From contig NZ_JAQFVF010000088.1 of assembly GCF_027789125.1 (NCBI RefSeq), positions 186,001 through 250,000 of the forward strand: a stretch of DNA of 64,000 nt, given 5' to 3'. The notes under the pieces were generated by a model. It saw only the letters and a list, made by a program, of their open reading frames with translations, did no database searches and was not told the origin of the DNA. This stretch comes from Paenibacillus aestuarii (lineage in GTDB: Bacteria > Bacillota > Bacilli > Paenibacillales > NBRC-103111). A program made the position numbers and the translations under genes. How positions within the stretch are numbered: the stretch's first letter is position 1; each line of letters begins with the position of its first letter. Below, in pieces: positions 1,647-45,948 of this stretch.

Positions 1647-2381
1647 ATGAGAATTAATAAATTTATTAGCGAAACCGGCGTGTGCTCCAGGCGCGAGGCC
1701 GATAAATGGGTGGAAGCGGGACGTGTTTCGATCAACGGCGTGAGAGCAACGCTGGGCAGCGTCGTCGACCCCGGCGATGACGTCCGTATCGATGGCAGGA
1801 AGATCGGCGAGAAGAAAGAGCACGTCTACATCGCGTTGAACAAGCCGGTGGGAATTACCAGTACGACGGAAGCGCATGTGAAGGGCAACATTGTTGACTT
1901 TGTCGGGCACGAGGAGCGCATTTTTCCTATCGGGCGGTTGGACAAAGATTCCGAAGGGCTGATTTTGCTGACTAACAACGGCGATATCGTCAACCAGATT
2001 TTGCGGGCGGAGAATAATCACGACAAAGAATATATCGTTACTGTCAACAAACCGGTAACTCCGATGTTTTTGCAAGGGATGGCGAGCGGGGTGAAAATCC
2101 TCGGAACGACGACCAAGCCCTGCGAGGTTTATAAAGTCGGGGATCGGGTTTTCCGGATCATTCTTACGCAAGGGCTGAACCGGCAAATCCGCCGGATGTG
2201 CGAGGCGTTCGGCTATCGCGTTACGCGTCTGCAGCGCGTGCGGATCATGCATATCCACCTGGGCAACCTAAAGCTCGGCCAGTGGCGGGATTTAACGAAA
2301 GGTGAGATGCAGGATTTAATGCGTACGCTCAGCAAAAGCTATCCAGGAACGGACAAGGACCGGACGCAGGCAAGAAATTAG
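1647..2381 (+). CDS. rluF: 23S rRNA pseudouridine synthase, RluF/RluB family
   Basis: 244 residues. An N-terminal S4 RNA-binding domain (about 1-50, beginning [19 protein letters not shown]) precedes the RsuA/RluB-type catalytic domain. The catalytic Asp is D99 in [10 protein letters not shown], and the conserved LNRQIRRM segment near residue 180 is present. The domain order and length fit RluF, which modifies 23S rRNA near the peptidyl-transferase centre (U2604 in E. coli numbering); RluB is the alternative. The ATG follows GAAGGGA. The gene is single, with its own promoter and terminator. Confidence 0.88.
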
Positions 2382-2395
2382 GCTAGCCTCATAAG

Positions 2396-2451
2396 AAAAG
2401 CATGTGCTGTGAACCCTCGGAGAAGGGCTTTCATATGTGCATGCTTTTTTT
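2396..2451 (+). terminator. Intrinsic terminator of rluF
   Basis: AAAAGCATG (2396-2404) pairs with CATGCTTTT (2440-2448) around a smaller inner hairpin, followed by a T-run. Confidence 0.7.
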
Positions 2452-2483
2452 AATTTACTTGTTTAAAAAAATTATATTGGCGA

Positions 2484-2511
2484 GCAACCTTTTTCCAACT
2501 TCTGACGTTAG
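2484..2511 (+). promoter_or_regulatory. Candidate ECF-sigma promoter of the SLH gene
   Basis: GCAACC (2484-2489), followed by a T-run, a 16-base spacer and CGTTAG (2506-2511). The AAC...CGT pattern with a 16-base spacer is that of Bacillus sigma-W/X/M-type promoters. No equally good sigma-A pair is visible nearer the gene. Confidence 0.5.
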
Positions 2512-2546
2512 AAGCATATAAGACCATTTTGTCTCTAAGGGGGAAG

Positions 2547-4943
2547 ATGAACTTGAAATTGCTTAAACAAGTGGGGTCTATCGCTGTAGCTTCTTCACTT
2601 CTACTAGCTGCCGTTCCTCATGCATGGGCAGACGAGGCTGCGCAGTCCGGCGCAGCCGTTAGTGATAGTGTAATCGCACGGCCAGTCATGCCTGTAATGC
2701 CCGGACAAGTTGACGGCAAACTGCCTGAGGCTAGCCTTTCCAAGGAACGGGCACTGGAGCTGGCCCAAAGTTATGTCACCATCCCATCTGGCTACACGCT
2801 GCAATCGATCAGCCTGAATGGCTACTATGGTGGCGGCCGCAGCTATCCAACGTGGAACATATCCTATGCCAAGAAGGTCAAGGATCAGTTTTACGGCAAT
2901 ATAAACATCTCCATTAATGGCATAGACGGATCGTTATCATCCTATTATAAGTACGATCAAGATCCAGACAGGAAGCCGAGTTATCCGCCGAAGGTTGACT
3001 TCAAAGGGGCCAAAGATGCCGCATCGGCTTGGATTACCAAAGTAAACCCAAGCAAACAAAGTGATTTACTGTATAACGATACAGAAGAGAAGGCTTTCCG
3101 CACACCGCTTGACGGGAACTACCAGTACAATATTCGCTTTGACCGCTCCGTAGCTGGCGTGCCTTTCCCACAAAACGGCGTAAACGTCACGGTGAATGGC
3201 GACGGGGAAGTGGTTTCCTACAATTATAATTGGGACGACCAAGTCACCTTCGACCAAAGTGCGGCTGCCATTACGATAGATAAAGCAGCGCAGCTATTTA
3301 AGGATAAAGCGAAGCTGTCATTGCAGTATCAAATTCCGTATCGCGCTGACGCCGCTCAAAAGAAACAGCCCATTATTTCGTATACATTCAACGGCTTTTC
3401 CTTGAATGCGGTAACAGGCGAGCTGTGGAATCCAGTGGGTGGGGACTCCGCTGCAGCAGGTCGGAAACCGCTTACTGACAAGCCGCTAGGAAGCAAGCCT
3501 GCAGCCAACCTGAACTTGACGAAGGAGCAGGCAGTCCGGAAGGTGATCGATACGTTCGGCCTCTCCTCAGATTTGCAATTGCAGGATGCTTCTTACAATG
3601 AATCCACGAATCCGGAGACAGGCGAGACGGAATCGACCTGGAATTTGAACTGGAATAAGCCTGCGGATAAAGAAGCAAATAGTAAAATTGTTGGCGGCGG
3701 TGCGTGGGCAACCGTTGACAGCAAAACGGGCGAAATCAAAAACTTCAACAGCTATGCGTCTTATGAACCGGACAAAGAAGTCGATGCCAAGGTCTCCCTG
3801 GATACGGCGGCGGCAACAGCCACTGACTTTGTGAAAAAACTGCTGCCGGCCTACACCGACCAGCTCGTGCTGGATGTGCCGAATGAAAAAGATTTCTCGG
3901 CCGATCAGCTGAAGCATATGCGCAACTGGGAGGTTAGCTTCAAACGGGTTATTGACGGCGTAGCTGCAGGTTATGAGCAAGCTTCGCTCAGTGTGGATCG
4001 CACGACAGGCAAGATCGTGAATTTCAGCATCTCGTTCAGCGATGTGCCTTACCCTACGCAGAAGCCTGAGGTCATTGATATTGACAAGGCCAAAGACCTG
4101 CTGCTATCGCAATACGATATTAAGCTGAACTATGTGCTTGCAGGTAACAGGGGTGTCGGCGTTATGCCGCTTGAGAAGTACAACCTCATGGTCGCGTCCG
4201 GCGAGATCCTGCCACAGGCGGCTGATCAGTCGGCCGATGACAAGCTGACAGCGAAACTGGTCTACTCCCTTGTTCCAAAGTACACACAGGAAGCGTTCCT
4301 GCTGGATGCGCAGTCCGGACAGTGGAAGAGCGCCAACACCGGCGAAGTGATCACACTTGGCAAAATCAAAGTCGACGATATCGACAATCACTGGGCGCGG
4401 AACGAGCTGCAGCTGATGGTAGATTACCAGGCGCTCGATGTCAAAGACGGCAAAGTCAATCCGGAGCAAACGATGACGCGCGGTGAAATGATCAAAATGC
4501 TGGTCATCGCCATCAACGGCGGCAACAGCGGTTTTTATTACGGTGCTGAGCGGAAAGCTTCCTTTGCGGATGTAAAAGCAGGTTCTCCATACTTCGCCTA
4601 TGTGGAAAGCGCCGTAGACCGCGGGCTTCTGGATCCAGGCGCCGACTTTAACCCGAATGCGCCGATGAATCGTGAGGATATGGCACAGCTCATCGTGAAG
4701 GCGCTGGGGTACCAGAACCTCACGAAGTATGAGGGCATTTTTAATACGAACTTCGCGGACGCTGCGCAGTTAAAAAATGCCGGCGCCGCTGTGATCGTGC
4801 TCGGCCTGGGTATTATGTCGTTGGATAACAATAGCTTCGAGCCGCAGCAAGAGGTATCAAGAGCTCAAGCGGCAAGCGCCTTCTTCCGCTTTTTACAGAA
4901 GCGCGCAGAACTGCAGTCTACGCCCCACATCGTTTATAGATAA
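2547..4943 (+). CDS. S-layer-homology surface protein with YcdB/YcdC repeats
   Basis: 798 residues. The ATG at 2547 follows AAGGGGG; a TTG at 2529 lies upstream of that Shine-Dalgarno sequence and is rejected. A signal peptide with a Lys-rich start and a hydrophobic stretch ends near AWADEA. The body carries YcdB/YcdC (PepSY-like) units, seen in repeated patterns of the type YTLQSISLNG ... YPTWNISYAKK and AVRKVIDTFGLSSDLQLQDA. The C-terminus (about residues 610-790) has three SLH modules, recognisable by DNHWARNELQ, FADVKAGSPYFAYVESAV and the AQAASAFFRFL end. SLH modules hold proteins to pyruvylated wall polymer, so it is probably a surface protein; its activity is unknown. It is monocistronic with a candidate ECF promoter, which suggests envelope-stress control. 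Confidence 0.88.
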   Translation: MNLKLLKQVGSIAVASSLLLAAVPHAWADEAAQSGAAVSDSVIARPVMPVMPGQVDGKLPEASLSKERALELAQSYVTIPSGYTLQSISLNGYYGGGRSYPTWNISYAKKVKDQFYGNINISINGIDGSLSSYYKYDQDPDRKPSYPPKVDFKGAKDAASAWITKVNPSKQSDLLYNDTEEKAFRTPLDGNYQYNIRFDRSVAGVPFPQNGVNVTVNGDGEVVSYNYNWDDQVTFDQSAAAITIDKAAQLFKDKAKLSLQYQIPYRADAAQKKQPIISYTFNGFSLNAVTGELWNPVGGDSAAAGRKPLTDKPLGSKPAANLNLTKEQAVRKVIDTFGLSSDLQLQDASYNESTNPETGETESTWNLNWNKPADKEANSKIVGGGAWATVDSKTGEIKNFNSYASYEPDKEVDAKVSLDTAAATATDFVKKLLPAYTDQLVLDVPNEKDFSADQLKHMRNWEVSFKRVIDGVAAGYEQASLSVDRTTGKIVNFSISFSDVPYPTQKPEVIDIDKAKDLLLSQYDIKLNYVLAGNRGVGVMPLEKYNLMVASGEILPQAADQSADDKLTAKLVYSLVPKYTQEAFLLDAQSGQWKSANTGEVITLGKIKVDDIDNHWARNELQLMVDYQALDVKDGKVNPEQTMTRGEMIKMLVIAINGGNSGFYYGAERKASFADVKAGSPYFAYVESAVDRGLLDPGADFNPNAPMNREDMAQLIVKALGYQNLTKYEGIFNTNFADAAQLKNAGAAVIVLGLGIMSLDNNSFEPQQEVSRAQAASAFFRFLQKRAELQSTPHIVYR

Positions 4944-42055: not shown

Positions 42056-42227
42056 ACGATCCCCCTCCCGACACAGGACCTTTTTTCATATATATATGTG
42101 TACGGCAGGCACTTGTCCTCTGGTATATGCCTATTTTCCATCTAATGGATAGAGTTTCCAATAGAACCGTGTTAAACTATGAAAATAGTTTTCTACCGGC
42201 GGTAAATAAGAGGTTGAGGTGATCGAG

Positions 42228-43298
42228 TTGAGGTCGATTTGGAAGTGGGTTGGACTCGGGATATTTACGCTTGTTTGTATTTTCCTGCTGAGCAATGTCC
42301 GGTACTTATTTATGTCCGTGCATCCTGATCAGATACGCGTGTCGCTTGGACCGGATATGACGGCAGAGAAGCTGGCCGGCGTGCTGCCCGGGAGCAAGGT
42401 CGTCGATCCGAAAATCGCGCTGCTCGCTGTCCCCTACGGGAAAGCGCAGGAATACGCTTTAACGGCGATGACCACCAGAGGTGTTTATCGCGCCTCAACG
42501 ATTCCATTAGATCATCCTGTTATTTCTTGGCGCTATTATGCCTCTCAGGTGCAAAATCAGACAACCGGCTTGCTCCACGGAGATTTTGGCACTTTTCGCA
42601 GCCCGACGAACTTGAAGGAGATGCGCGTTATTGATGCCATTCCGGACATGCTGCTGCGTACTTGCACATACTTTATTCCAGGTTTGCTTATGGCGATTGT
42701 GCTCAGTATTGTTCTAGCCTTGGCTGCATCGCTCTGGCGCGGCTTCGGTAAAGTGATCGACGGCGTCCATGTTCTGCTGCTCGGCTTGCCTGATTTTTTG
42801 CTGATCGTTCTGATTCAATTAGGCGCGGTTTATGTGACCCGAGCGCTTGGTCATTATGTGCTCCTGGTCGTACAAGTCGGAGATAAAACACCGTTCCTGA
42901 TCCCGTTCCTTGCGATTGCGCTGATCCCGACAGTCACGATCTATGGCGCGCTTCGTGTTGCGATGGCCCGCGAGCTTGGACAAGATTATGTCATCACAGC
43001 CTTGGCCAAAGGGTTAACCCGCCGTGAGGTACTTATGGGCCATGTGCTGCGCAATGTGATGGAGGACCTGCTCGTCATACTGCCTAAAGCGACGACTCTG
43101 GCGCTTGCTAGCATGGCGGTGGCGGAAGCGATCTGCGGTATTTTGGGACTGGGCGGATTTATTATTTCACCTGCTGTGCAGAGCATTTCGACGATATCAA
43201 TCATTTGCATGACACTAGCCATTCTTGCGATGTTGTTCCATGTGATCTACGCGCTGCTGCACAAAAGGGTTGTCATTCGCACAAGGGAGGCTGGCTGA
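42228..43298 (+). CDS. ABC transporter permease, DppB/OppB type
   Basis: 356 residues from a TTG at 42228; GAGGTGATC just before it matches the 16S rRNA tail over nine bases, which favours it over GTG 42219. It has one N-terminal helix, a long external segment (about 35-135) and five helices. The EAA loop is GQDYVITALAKGLTRREVLMGHVLRN, typical of peptide/nickel permeases. Only the second permease follows; no binding protein or ATPase lies nearby, so the ATPase must be supplied from elsewhere. Confidence 0.87.
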   Translation: MRSIWKWVGLGIFTLVCIFLLSNVRYLFMSVHPDQIRVSLGPDMTAEKLAGVLPGSKVVDPKIALLAVPYGKAQEYALTAMTTRGVYRASTIPLDHPVISWRYYASQVQNQTTGLLHGDFGTFRSPTNLKEMRVIDAIPDMLLRTCTYFIPGLLMAIVLSIVLALAASLWRGFGKVIDGVHVLLLGLPDFLLIVLIQLGAVYVTRALGHYVLLVVQVGDKTPFLIPFLAIALIPTVTIYGALRVAMARELGQDYVITALAKGLTRREVLMGHVLRNVMEDLLVILPKATTLALASMAVAEAICGILGLGGFIISPAVQSISTISIICMTLAILAMLFHVIYALLHKRVVIRTREAG

Positions 43299-43300
43299 CG

Positions 43301-44257
43301 ATGATGAAACGCTCATCAACTGCCTATTACTGTTCTGTTGGACTTATGGTGTTGTTGGCGCTGCTTATGATTTTTGGAAGCTGGATCAAGCCCCATCCCA
43401 TCACACCGGATCATAAAATCAACTTCATTCAAGTCCAGCAGGACGGCAAAACCCGATATCTCAGCCCGCCGTTCGCTCCGAATCGCACTTTTCTCCTGGG
43501 AACGGATCACCGTGGTTATGATATGCTCAGCCTGCTACTGAACGGCATGAAGTATACACTGGGCATGGCGCTTATTTTGACCTTGGCCCGTTTCCTCATC
43601 GCCCTTCCTTGGGGCATGTGGAGTGGTGCCAGCAGTAGAGGGCTGGGTGTCTTGAGCTCACTGCAGTGGGTGACTGCCTCTGTGCCGGCGTTTATCTTTC
43701 TCTTTCCGCCACTGGCGGGTATGTATTATGGGTTGCGGCTGGATTACGGAATCAAGTCGGATCCGCATTATCATTTTATGTTTACGGTGCTCTTTATTGT
43801 TCTGGTTACTTTCATTGGCATCTTTCCGTTAGCCCACCAGTTGGCAGGCCGTGCACAATATTATAGCCAGCGATTATATATCGATGCGTCGCGCTTGATG
43901 GGCGGTTCAGCCTATCACCGGACAGTTCGCCATTTAATTCCGTGCATGCGCAATGAGCTATTGTTCATGTTTCTCAGCGAATTCATGCAGGTTTTGTTCC
44001 TCATGGGGCAGTTGGCCGTGTTCAGCATTGTGCTTGGCGGTACGGAGACGGTTGGCGATGAGGAGGCGGGGTTCAAAATCAACGTATCCGTTACTGGTGA
44101 ATGGACCTCGCTGATTGCCTACGGGGCTAAATATATCAGGCTGCAGCCATGGATTATTTTGAGCGTAGGCGCATTCTTTGCGGTGGTGCTGCTGTCGCTG
44201 CAGTTTTTCCTGGCGCAGTTGAAACGGCGCTACGGCACCGAGCGCGAATTGATCTAA
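43301..44257 (+). CDS. ABC transporter permease, DppC/OppC type
   Basis: 318 residues from the ATG at 43301, two bases after the stop of the first permease. An N-terminal helix and an external segment with FLLGTDHRGYDMLSLLLNG, the classical DppC/OppC opening, precede five helices. The EAA-like loop is SQRLYIDASRLMGGSAYHRTVRHLIP. It forms a pair with the gene before it. Export or import direction cannot be told without the missing subunits. Confidence 0.86.
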   Translation: MMKRSSTAYYCSVGLMVLLALLMIFGSWIKPHPITPDHKINFIQVQQDGKTRYLSPPFAPNRTFLLGTDHRGYDMLSLLLNGMKYTLGMALILTLARFLIALPWGMWSGASSRGLGVLSSLQWVTASVPAFIFLFPPLAGMYYGLRLDYGIKSDPHYHFMFTVLFIVLVTFIGIFPLAHQLAGRAQYYSQRLYIDASRLMGGSAYHRTVRHLIPCMRNELLFMFLSEFMQVLFLMGQLAVFSIVLGGTETVGDEEAGFKINVSVTGEWTSLIAYGAKYIRLQPWIILSVGAFFAVVLLSLQFFLAQLKRRYGTERELI

Positions 44258-44306: not shown

Positions 44307-44876
44307 TCAGCTGAGCTGGATGTCTAATCTGGCCGCTACGCCGGCCGGGTTGCTTACGCTGCGTGCGCCGACGAAGTTAAAGGCGATGATGACAATATCG
44401 TTGCGGCCTCTGCGCAGAAACCGGCGAACATTGAAGGTTCGGCCTGGATTGAAGAAAGCGGGCGTATTCTGCGGGCCATCGTAGAGAAGCGGGACGCCGT
44501 TAATGATGACAATCGCATAATTGTCGACAGAGATAAAGAACGAAGCGTTAACGATTCGCCGTTGCTGCGAAAGCGTAAAGCGTGTAGAGATTACAGCGTT
44601 ATCTGCGCTTAGATTACCGGAGAACCATACATAGTTGGCATTCTGGACGGGCACCCAGGCAGGTTCCCGCGGGATCACCTGGGCGTTAAACCAGGAATTA
44701 TCGGTGCCGATCGAGAGGAGGCGCTGGCTGAGGAAGCGATCCTTGCCAACACGATTCATTTTTTTGAGCTGTGCACGGTACATGGACATCACCTTGCTGC
44801 GCGAGAGCCCGGCGCTGCGAGGCAAGCGGACTACTTTCCATGTGGATGCGGCTTTTTCCGGTTTTAAGAGTTTCAT
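44307..44876 (-). CDS. Uncharacterised beta-rich protein
   Basis: 189 residues from the ATG at 44876, eight bases after AGGAG; the frame is open six codons further. The first 60 residues are basic (SRSKVMSMYRAQLKKMNRVGKDRF). The rest has beta-sandwich character resembling galactose-binding-like modules: WFSGNLSADNAVISTRFTL, DNYAIVIINGVPLLYDG, RNDIVIIAFNF. No signal peptide or catalytic motif. It could be a carbohydrate-binding or structural protein; I cannot assign it. Confidence 0.72.
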   Translation of the reverse strand: MKLLKPEKAASTWKVVRLPRSAGLSRSKVMSMYRAQLKKMNRVGKDRFLSQRLLSIGTDNSWFNAQVIPREPAWVPVQNANYVWFSGNLSADNAVISTRFTLSQQRRIVNASFFISVDNYAIVIINGVPLLYDGPQNTPAFFNPGRTFNVRRFLRRGRNDIVIIAFNFVGARSVSNPAGVAARLDIQLS

Positions 44877-44990
44877 AGACCCATCTCCTATCATTATATG
44901 AAATTGTTACATTCTATTCTATGCGCGAGAGAGCATCGTGCTAGGGGTTAGAAGCTGATAGGAAAGAAAGATGGGTTGAGATTTACGGTA

Positions 44991-45040
44991 TATGTATAAT
45001 GTTGTTTCAATATAAAATATGTGTTAAATTTATGTATAAA
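44991..45040. repeat. Three short repeats TATGTxTWAW upstream of the RHH-methyltransferase gene
   Basis: TATGTATAAT (44991-45000), TATGTGTTAA (45018-45027) and TATGTATAAA (45031-45040) are in the same orientation within the probable promoter region. They are candidate operators for the ribbon-helix-helix domain encoded downstream, but the region is AT-rich and chance copies are possible. Confidence 0.35.
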
Positions 45041-45060
45041 AGATGAAAGGAGCCTCCCTC

Positions 45061-45948
45061 ATGACAGATGATAAAACGAAAAGGCTGTCCGTCTATTTGC
45101 CGGAAAAGGTGAAAGCCGGATTGGAGCTGATGGCCGATGAAACCGGGCTTTCGATGACTCAGCTGATTGTCATGGCGACTCACAGCCTGCTGGCGAATTA
45201 TGAAGCCAGAGGCGGCTCGATTTTCGCCGATTTATTGTCCGCCAGACATCGCATCGGTCAAGAGGCTGAGCAGAAGCGATTGCTGCTGGAACAGGATAAA
45301 AAGGCGATGCAGGACTATTACGGGGCCCGTGCCGAGGAATACGAACGCATCTATCACCGGGATGATCCGGATTATCAGCAAGGCCTAATTCTGCTCCGTC
45401 ATGCAATGACGGGGGTAGTGCGCGGTAGGCGCGTCCTGGAAGTTGCCTGTGGTACCGGCTACTGGACGCAAGCCGCGGCTGATGCTGCGGAGCACATCTT
45501 GGGCGTCGATATTCGCCCGGAGGTGCTGCAGATTGCGAAGGCGAAGCCATGGCCTGCTGGCAAGGTTGACTTCTGCATCGGCGATGCCTATCGGCTGGAT
45601 CAAGTGGAGGGGGGCTTTAACTGCGGAGTGGCGAACTTTTGGTTCTCGCACATCCCGCGCAATCGCCTCGACGAGTTTTTGGAGAGTTTTCACCGACGGC
45701 TGGGCCACGGAGCTACGGTCTTTATCGCGGATAATGTATATGTCGCTGGACGCGGAGGAGAGCTTATACGGAAAGAAGACAGCGAGGACACGTTCAAACG
45801 TAGAGAACTCGCAGACGGCACGCAACATGATATCATTAAAAATTATTACAGCTATGACGAGCTGAACGATATTTTCAAGCCTTACGCGAAGCATTTACAA
45901 GTTTTTGTAGGCAGCAGCTTCTGGTATGTCATCTATACGATAGCTTAA
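45061..45948 (+). CDS. Ribbon-helix-helix DNA-binding domain fused to a SAM methyltransferase
   Basis: 295 residues from the ATG at 45061 after AAAGGAGC. Residues 5-48 (KRLSVYLPEKVKAGLELMADETGLSM ... HSLLANY) form a ribbon-helix-helix fold of the CopG/Arc type. A helical linker (about 60-90) leads to a class I methyltransferase with motif I VLEVACGTGYW (125-135), a VDIRPE acidic end of strand 2, and an FWFSHIP motif IV region. The methyl acceptor is unknown; the motif IV has no NPPY/DPPY, so it is probably not a DNA amino-methylase. The fusion suggests DNA-targeted action, self-regulation, or dimerisation through the ribbon. Confidence 0.85.
   Translation: MTDDKTKRLSVYLPEKVKAGLELMADETGLSMTQLIVMATHSLLANYEARGGSIFADLLSARHRIGQEAEQKRLLLEQDKKAMQDYYGARAEEYERIYHRDDPDYQQGLILLRHAMTGVVRGRRVLEVACGTGYWTQAAADAAEHILGVDIRPEVLQIAKAKPWPAGKVDFCIGDAYRLDQVEGGFNCGVANFWFSHIPRNRLDEFLESFHRRLGHGATVFIADNVYVAGRGGELIRKEDSEDTFKRRELADGTQHDIIKNYYSYDELNDIFKPYAKHLQVFVGSSFWYVIYTIA

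Follow-up and report, generated by a model that had tools for sequence, protein, structure and literature searches.

A ribbon-helix-helix–methyltransferase fusion of Paenibacillus with a conserved putative operator at its own promoter

The stretch of DNA analysed here (the window, 64,000 nucleotides of Paenibacillus aestuarii) carries a gene in which a ribbon-helix-helix (RHH) DNA-binding domain is joined to a class I SAM-dependent methyltransferase (MTase), and the question raised by this locus is what a DNA-binding domain does on such an enzyme. A preliminary description, made from the sequence, had left the choice between a self-regulated enzyme and a methyltransferase brought to DNA or to DNA-bound targets, and had named three short repeats in the promoter as possible binding sites. 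The fusion that it reported is upheld by the analysis; the three repeats as binding sites are not.

The fusion gene, its distribution and its surroundings

The fusion of the RHH domain to the MTase is genuine. A single open frame without internal stop runs on the + strand from the ATG at 45061 to the stop codon at 45948 and encodes 295 aa; another ATG, at 45043, was set aside as a start, since it adjoins the ribosome-binding site on its 5' side. The features of the gene and those proposed for its promoter are the following:

44987..45003, + strand, putative operator site 1, the upstream copy, an imperfect 17-bp palindrome, GGTATATGTATAATGTT, at a 22-bp offset from site 2
45002..45007, + strand, probable -35 hexamer TTGTTT, assigned by position only, 17 bp ahead of the -10 (alignment columns 15-20)
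45009..45025, + strand, putative operator site 2, a 17-bp palindrome with the consensus RACAYAWWWTWTRTGTT, here AATATAAAATATGTGTT, conserved in relatives
45022..45030, + strand, probable extended -10, TGT-TAAATT, which shares TGTT with site 2 (columns 35-43)
45046..45052, + strand, ribosome-binding site AAAGGAG, assigned by sequence, 8 bases ahead of ATG 45061
45061..45198, + strand, RHH DNA-binding domain, residues 1-46 (Pfam RHH_1/RHH_5), the most conserved region
45199..45300, + strand, helical linker between the RHH and MTase domains, residues 47-80
45301..45948, + strand, class I SAM-methyltransferase domain, residues 81-295, plus stop (profile, sequence and fold matches)

Pfam RHH_1 matches residues 8-36 with 21.2 bits against a cut-off of 20.5, RHH_5 scores 24.6, slightly under its cut-off of 26, and at E<=0.01 the two profiles match 11 and 13, respectively, of 13 members. 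The match to CopG (2cpg/1b01) is weak (E 0.017); positioned through the alignment with CopG, the strand pattern R8-x-[ST]10-x-Y12 is present in 29/29 fusions, at positions that face the DNA in RHH domains. On sequence grounds, the domain can be assigned to the RHH/CopG-like class by its profile match, its polar strand residues and a symmetric putative operator. An AlphaFold model of one chain (13 aligned sequences, mean pLDDT 83.3) lacks the RHH strand and predicts a long helix at residues 53-89. The similarity of lone plasmid RHH proteins to the fusion stops at residue 64, and five of the six lone family MTases start at the equivalent of fusion M83.

The preliminary description had called for a look at the distribution of the fusion. 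The family is represented by 104 genomes. At E<=1e-20 the protein is matched in 36 of them: 29 carry the full-length form (alignment from residue 1-4 to 293-295), and in seven the match begins only at residue 77-82. Since 29 genomes encode the protein over this whole length, a sequencing error cannot explain the join, which bears out the earlier reading of a continuous frame with a linker. Within the genus, the fusion is found in 20 of 30 genomes. The genome sets used for the order, the class and the phylum are samples: in the order, 36 of 392 genomes have a match at E<=1e-30, and every one of them belongs to this family; the sole match among 398 genomes of the class is the window's own genome; and the 398 genomes of the phylum (E<=1e-16) yield nothing beyond the window's genome and a single MTase-only protein. 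No match to the fusion protein is present in 50,697 phage records, and the ten matches in 72,556 plasmid records, five RHH-only and five on the MTase side, all span less than 80% of the query. Named carriers, from a scan limited to close relatives, are Paenibacillus sedimenti WST5 and Paenibacillus sp. P25.

With domain borders chosen by us, residues 1-46 reach a mean column identity of 0.889 in the 29 sequences, against 0.669 for residues 47-80 and 0.786 for the remainder. The dN/dS values are 0-0.089 for the RHH domain in six pairs (a seventh pair, the window versus L007, is saturated at silent sites), 0.059-0.114 for the MTase in five pairs (one saturated pair and one of unequal length were left out) and 0.035-0.508 for the linker in six pairs. 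The RHH domain is more constrained than the MTase in four of the five comparable pairs and less constrained in the pair L018/L020. Two genomes contain broken remnants, one (G094, L171) an internally deleted fusion with the operator kept (21.8 bits), the other (G050, L170) a part of the RHH domain with the operator gone, and the gene must therefore be dispensable.

All six genus regions compared (L036, L105-L107, L111, L112) share most of the window's gene order near the fusion. The neighbours differ in the regions from other genera (L037, L108-L110), where only the fusion matches, plus one distant gene in L109. No operon partner common across genera was found in the regions compared, and apart from its operator the fusion gene seems to have no fixed companion. 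The idea that the RHH part is the antitoxin of a toxin-antitoxin pair was discarded, there being no neighbour common between genera in these regions, and the neighbourhood was likewise dropped as a clue to the substrate because its order is kept only within the genus and the neighbours in other genera differ. Directly upstream of the fusion gene in the window lies a divergent gene (44307-44894, - strand). Its product, of 195 aa, is matched by no Pfam family at E<=1 and has no credible counterpart in NCBIfam; five of the six genus regions contain it (69-74% identity), L111 being the one without it. Further upstream, the window has two permease-like membrane proteins (42219-44257, + strand) that all six of these regions retain; the second of the two matches OppC_N very weakly (E 0.24).

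Tandem palindromes over the promoter

The palindrome RACAYAWWWTWTRTGTT stands upstream of 29/29 fusion genes with 0-4 mismatches to the consensus. A second copy, upstream of site 2, is more variable, and in the genome of the window this site 1 is degenerate: GGTATATGTATAATGTT has more than four mismatches to the consensus. When partners of site 2 were searched with a symmetrised site-2 matrix 12-40 bp away in both directions, the best one was located 22 bp upstream in 28 of the 29 loci; at the exception, L025, the best partner, at an offset of 21 bp, scores below zero, and the hold-out match described below falls at a different place. The column information reaches 2 bits inside site 2 and is about zero farther upstream.

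The probable -10 hexamer occupies 45025-45030. Most relatives read TGTTAWAAT at the extended -10, where T35, G36 and T37 are found in 29/29 loci and A39 and T43 in 28/29 each. A generic scan listed no + strand promoter at this place, and the -35/-10 reading thus rests on conservation and position; the same scan listed no terminator downstream of the fusion gene. Site 1 reaches the -35 and the right arm of site 2 enters the -10, so a repressor bound to both would cover the promoter. The direct repeats behave differently from the palindromes. A repeat search returned two two-copy families, TATGTATAA at 44991/45031 and TATAAAATATG at 45011/45035, and the copies at 45031 and 45035 sit 3' of the proposed -10, where the motif is unconserved. 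Lack of conservation among relatives rules the direct repeats out as an operator, and what is conserved instead of the three short repeats proposed earlier is the pair of tandem 17-bp palindromes.

A matrix made from the nine loci of other genera finds the operator in 20/20 promoters of the genus, and the reverse hold-out, with a matrix of the 20 genus loci, finds it in 9/9 promoters of other genera, with p=0.0033 each, which is the floor for 300 dinucleotide shuffles; the matches fall at the expected place in 28 of the 29 loci. The operator is absent before 8/8 lone MTases, which score -7.6 to -25.3 bits versus 17.5 to 49.1 for the 29 fusions, and no RHH-type operator is present in the promoter of a MerR-fused MTase (see below). 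The operator appears to go with the RHH domain and not with the MTase.

Among seven lone RHH proteins, the operator is present before one (G088), which has 69 residues, is 59% identical, carries the strand R-L-T-V-Y and has no MTase in frame. Its promoter reads AACACAGAAAATGTGTT and then TATAAT at the same place and scores 17.0 bits, above 500/500 shuffles (p=0.002); site 2 is good here and site 1 poor, and a test of palindromicity alone failed (0.092-0.684). No such operator was found before the five plasmid lone RHH proteins (<=4.9 bits) or before that of G500 (-27.9 bits), and the strand residues of these six, judged by eye, do not follow R-x-[ST]-x-Y. The plasmid proteins (L134:2492-2695 and its homologues in L135, L136, L137 and L138, on Bacillaceae plasmids) are RHH-like, 61-67 aa long, annotated as hypothetical and 51-59% identical to fusion residues ~7-64; those of L134, L135, L136 and L138 have no Pfam match at E<=0.01. 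Upstream of the L134 gene (strand K-x-P-x-S) there are GATATC-type palindromes 33 bp apart, with a shuffle share of 0.002 at this spacing (spacings of 11 and 22 were also tried and gave 0.012 and 0.058), and they perhaps represent a sister operator specificity; at the other four plasmid loci no palindrome-spacing shuffle share is below 0.05.

In a genome-wide scan with a double-site model, the promoter of the fusion gene is the top match in 20/20 fusion-bearing genomes of the genus (E 8.8e-9 to 1.1e-3), a rank that is obtained partly by construction because the model was made from those promoters. The window's own match (44989-45025, 22.4 bits) is the top one in the window and in its genome, and both its score and its E value are the weakest of the 20 genomes. 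The informative part of the scan is the absence of other strong places within the 150 candidates scored per genome out of about 1700-4000 first-look ones: outside the own promoter, the top match in the 20 genomes reaches only E 0.046, and ten genus genomes that lack the fusion have either no double-site match or one at E>=0.059. Weaker additional targets are possible, as 150 candidates were scored per genome and single sites are no commoner than a control. With one mismatch allowed, RACAYAWWWTWTRTGTT has 245 matches in 30 genomes versus 309 for the reversed control, so single sites are unable to define a regulon, and the attempt to delineate one in this way was abandoned.

The methyltransferase domain and a second route of fusion

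Pfam Methyltransf_25 matches residues 125-215 (3e-15). Motif I (EVACGTGYW) and a Rossmann-like fold, which define class I SAM-methyltransferases, are both found in the domain. The closest solved structure, by sequence and by fold, is that of the phosphonate O-methyltransferase DhpI (3ou2/3ou6/3ou7): 3ou2 is matched at 1.1e-12 with the single sequence and at 1.7e-17 with a profile of 13 homologues, and DhpI comes first when the AlphaFold model is compared with structures (TM 0.75-0.78 by target length, 24-26% identity). Seventeen of the 18 MTase positions examined are identical in 29/29 fusions, and the invariant set includes motif I, D150, W194, H197, K246, R248, G253, K260, N261, Y262 and W288, among others. 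By manual count on the alignment, the counterparts of R248 and K260 in DhpI are R168 and K180, which we take to be phosphonate-binding residues and whose equivalents are thus kept in all 29; DhpI Y29, presumably a ligand-binding residue, has no counterpart in the fusion. It is quite probable that the domain is an active small-molecule MTase, and an acidic small molecule is a reasonable guess for the acceptor. Two lone MTases (L103 and L104, of G006 and G007) lack the equivalents of R248 and K260 and other pocket residues, and they may have an altered function or be decaying. Three of the four lone MTase genes of genus g8 have, as judged by eye, a DHFR-like gene as their convergent neighbour, which is not informative about the substrate.

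In a tree of 37 MTases (the plasmid MTase L175 was left out, and midpoint rooting served for drawing only), the 29 RHH fusions are all on one side of a branch (100/99). Nearest to this clade in the midpoint-rooted drawing (95/83), with lone MTases beyond, is a fusion to a different DNA-binding domain, MerR, found in one genome (G068, L174:4410-5447; MerR_1 at 1.3e-14), the MTase part of which is 47% identical to the RHH-fused one. Its promoter, TTGCCT-19 bp-TACAAT, contains the dyad TTAGAG-TGAG-CTCTAA. A 19-bp spacer with a dyad is the usual layout at MerR-controlled promoters, and it arose in 1/3000 shuffles of the 200 upstream bases in a test framed after the site was seen. The MerR fusion resembles the RHH fusion in its related MTase and in having a regulator-type dyad in its own promoter, but it differs in its MerR helix-turn-helix and 19-bp-spacer promoter and in the absence of the RHH domain and of tandem palindromes. 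Related MTases thus appear to have acquired two DNA-binding domains that are not related to each other, and in both cases the promoter of the fusion gene holds a site that suits the domain. Because there are two fusion routes, the second of them represented by the single genome G068, the fusions probably serve the coupling of the enzyme to its expression and not dimerisation.

A trigger enzyme and the alternatives to it

An enzyme bearing a DNA-binding domain, with an operator at its own gene, has the makings of a trigger enzyme, and at the level of sequence both elements are found here; the conserved operator over the promoter also lends strong support to the self-regulated enzyme of the preliminary description. 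We consider it probable that the fusion protein is an autoregulating trigger enzyme, PutA-like in design and ArsR-MTase-like in content, that methylates a small molecule. The RHH domains would dimerise and then bind the tandem palindromes over their own -35/-10 region, a step for which the sequence argues strongly, and would thereby block RNA polymerase and keep the gene low; the position of the operator suggests repression rather than activation. DNA binding and autoregulation by the fusion protein are very likely. The C-terminal domain would act as a SAM-dependent MTase on a small, perhaps acidic, molecule, as suggested by the invariant residues on the SAM and acceptor sides and by the likeness to DhpI. 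The weakest steps come last: the substrate and/or SAM/SAH in the MTase domain may alter the grip of the RHH pair on DNA, and the enzyme might in this way be made once its substrate appears, for example a toxin or an antibiotic to be inactivated. Such ligand-coupled induction is conceivable, with the balance tipped slightly against it.

The SAM-binding part of the domain might also serve mainly as a SAM/SAH sensor, making the protein a SAM-responsive repressor with a MetJ-like logic and little or no catalysis. Motif I and D150 are indeed identical in 29/29 fusions, and MetJ is an RHH repressor with SAM as co-repressor (PMC1282579). However, W194, H197, R248, K260, N261, Y262 and W288 are likewise invariant, and a SAM sensor would hardly need them; these seven residues are intact in four of the seven lone MTases of the tree, with one change in a fifth, and no second double operator at E<0.04 was found near methionine genes or elsewhere among the 150 candidates scored in each of the 20 genomes. 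We regard a pure sensor as improbable. That the RHH domain merely dimerises the enzyme, its DNA binding lost or irrelevant, is very unlikely: an added RHH domain does make RcPutA dimeric (PMC5293562), and the predicted helix 53-89 could act as a dimer arm, but the conserved operator tracks the RHH domain and not the MTase, and the DNA-facing R8, S/T10 and Y12 are kept in every fusion. The same residues and the operator speak against the N-terminal part being only a dimerisation arm, the finding that the preliminary description had said would refute its proposal.

The joining of an MTase to a DNA-binding domain by itself invites the idea that the RHH domain directs methylation of DNA, or of a DNA-bound protein, beside the operator. 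None of the 29 fusions carries the DNA-MTase motif IV [DNS]PP[YFW] or PC[QN], and no DNA-MTase family is among the matches listed for Pfam (16) and NCBIfam (the best 25 of 39), which do include weak rRNA-MTase matches. Relatives without any DNA-binding domain exist, and the closest structure is that of a small-molecule enzyme. DNA methylation by the fusion is unlikely, and this reading was rejected on the absent motifs and the DhpI structure; taken with a double operator found, among the candidates scored, only at the own gene, they leave directed methylation of DNA or a DNA-bound protein extremely improbable and tell against the earlier proposal of an MTase brought to such targets.

The trigger-enzyme reading places the fusion beside several known systems. 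PutA also has an N-terminal RHH domain on an enzyme, represses its own gene and is a single-target trigger enzyme, but this trifunctional protein is a proline/P5C dehydrogenase without an MTase, it relocates to the membrane, and putP is a further gene under its control (PMC5293562, PMC8249747). ArsRM of Brevundimonas is likewise a DNA-binding regulator on a SAM-MTase; the palindrome that it binds is in the promoter of its own gene and its methyl acceptor is arsenite, while its DNA-binding domain is of the ArsR type and it is the first gene of a met operon (PMC10190100), unlike the fusion with its RHH domain and no conserved operon partner. MetJ shares with the fusion an RHH repressor domain and the involvement of SAM in its activity, but it is described without an MTase domain, the RHH dimer itself binds SAM, and methionine genes are controlled (PMC1282579); the same paper presented it in 2005 as the sole known SAM-binding RHH protein. 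DhpI, which the MTase domain matches best in both sequence and fold and whose R168/K180 pair aligns with R248/K260, has no DNA-binding domain, takes part in dehydrophos biosynthesis, shares 24-26% identity and has the unmatched Y29. Titles and abstract openings of open-licence literature on RHH/CopG proteins with methyltransferase or enzyme fusions mention no RHH-MTase protein, and the preliminary description, which knew of no characterised example, holds in this respect; as a statement on DNA-binding domains fused to MTases it does not, since an ArsR-MTase that binds its own promoter has been published (PMC10190100). The novelty lies in the RHH-MTase combination, the design of a DNA-binding domain on an enzyme being already known from ArsRM and PutA, and because these exist the fusion is a new variant rather than a new kind of system.

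A more speculative scenario, which we think unlikely, is that a single polypeptide works as a complete, inducible device for detoxification or self-protection, in which a DhpI-like pocket would sense a toxic acid or phosphonate-type natural product, the binding of which, along with SAM, would release the RHH domain from the double operator, and would then methylate the inducer, the MTase lineage having been wired to its own promoter twice, through RHH and through MerR. If this were true, the lineage would offer a natural swap experiment on how catalytic domains turn into sensors, and the RHH form would be a second, catalytic SAM-linked RHH regulator besides MetJ. The operator, its spacing and its half-site appear to be mapped already through the comparison of relatives, and the conserved promoter is a potential reporter in the search for the substrate. 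Methyltransferases would join the short list of enzymes that bear an RHH repressor, and related bacteria, in which lone-RHH, lone-MTase, RHH-MTase and MerR-MTase forms occur, provide material on how enzymes may gain control of their own genes.
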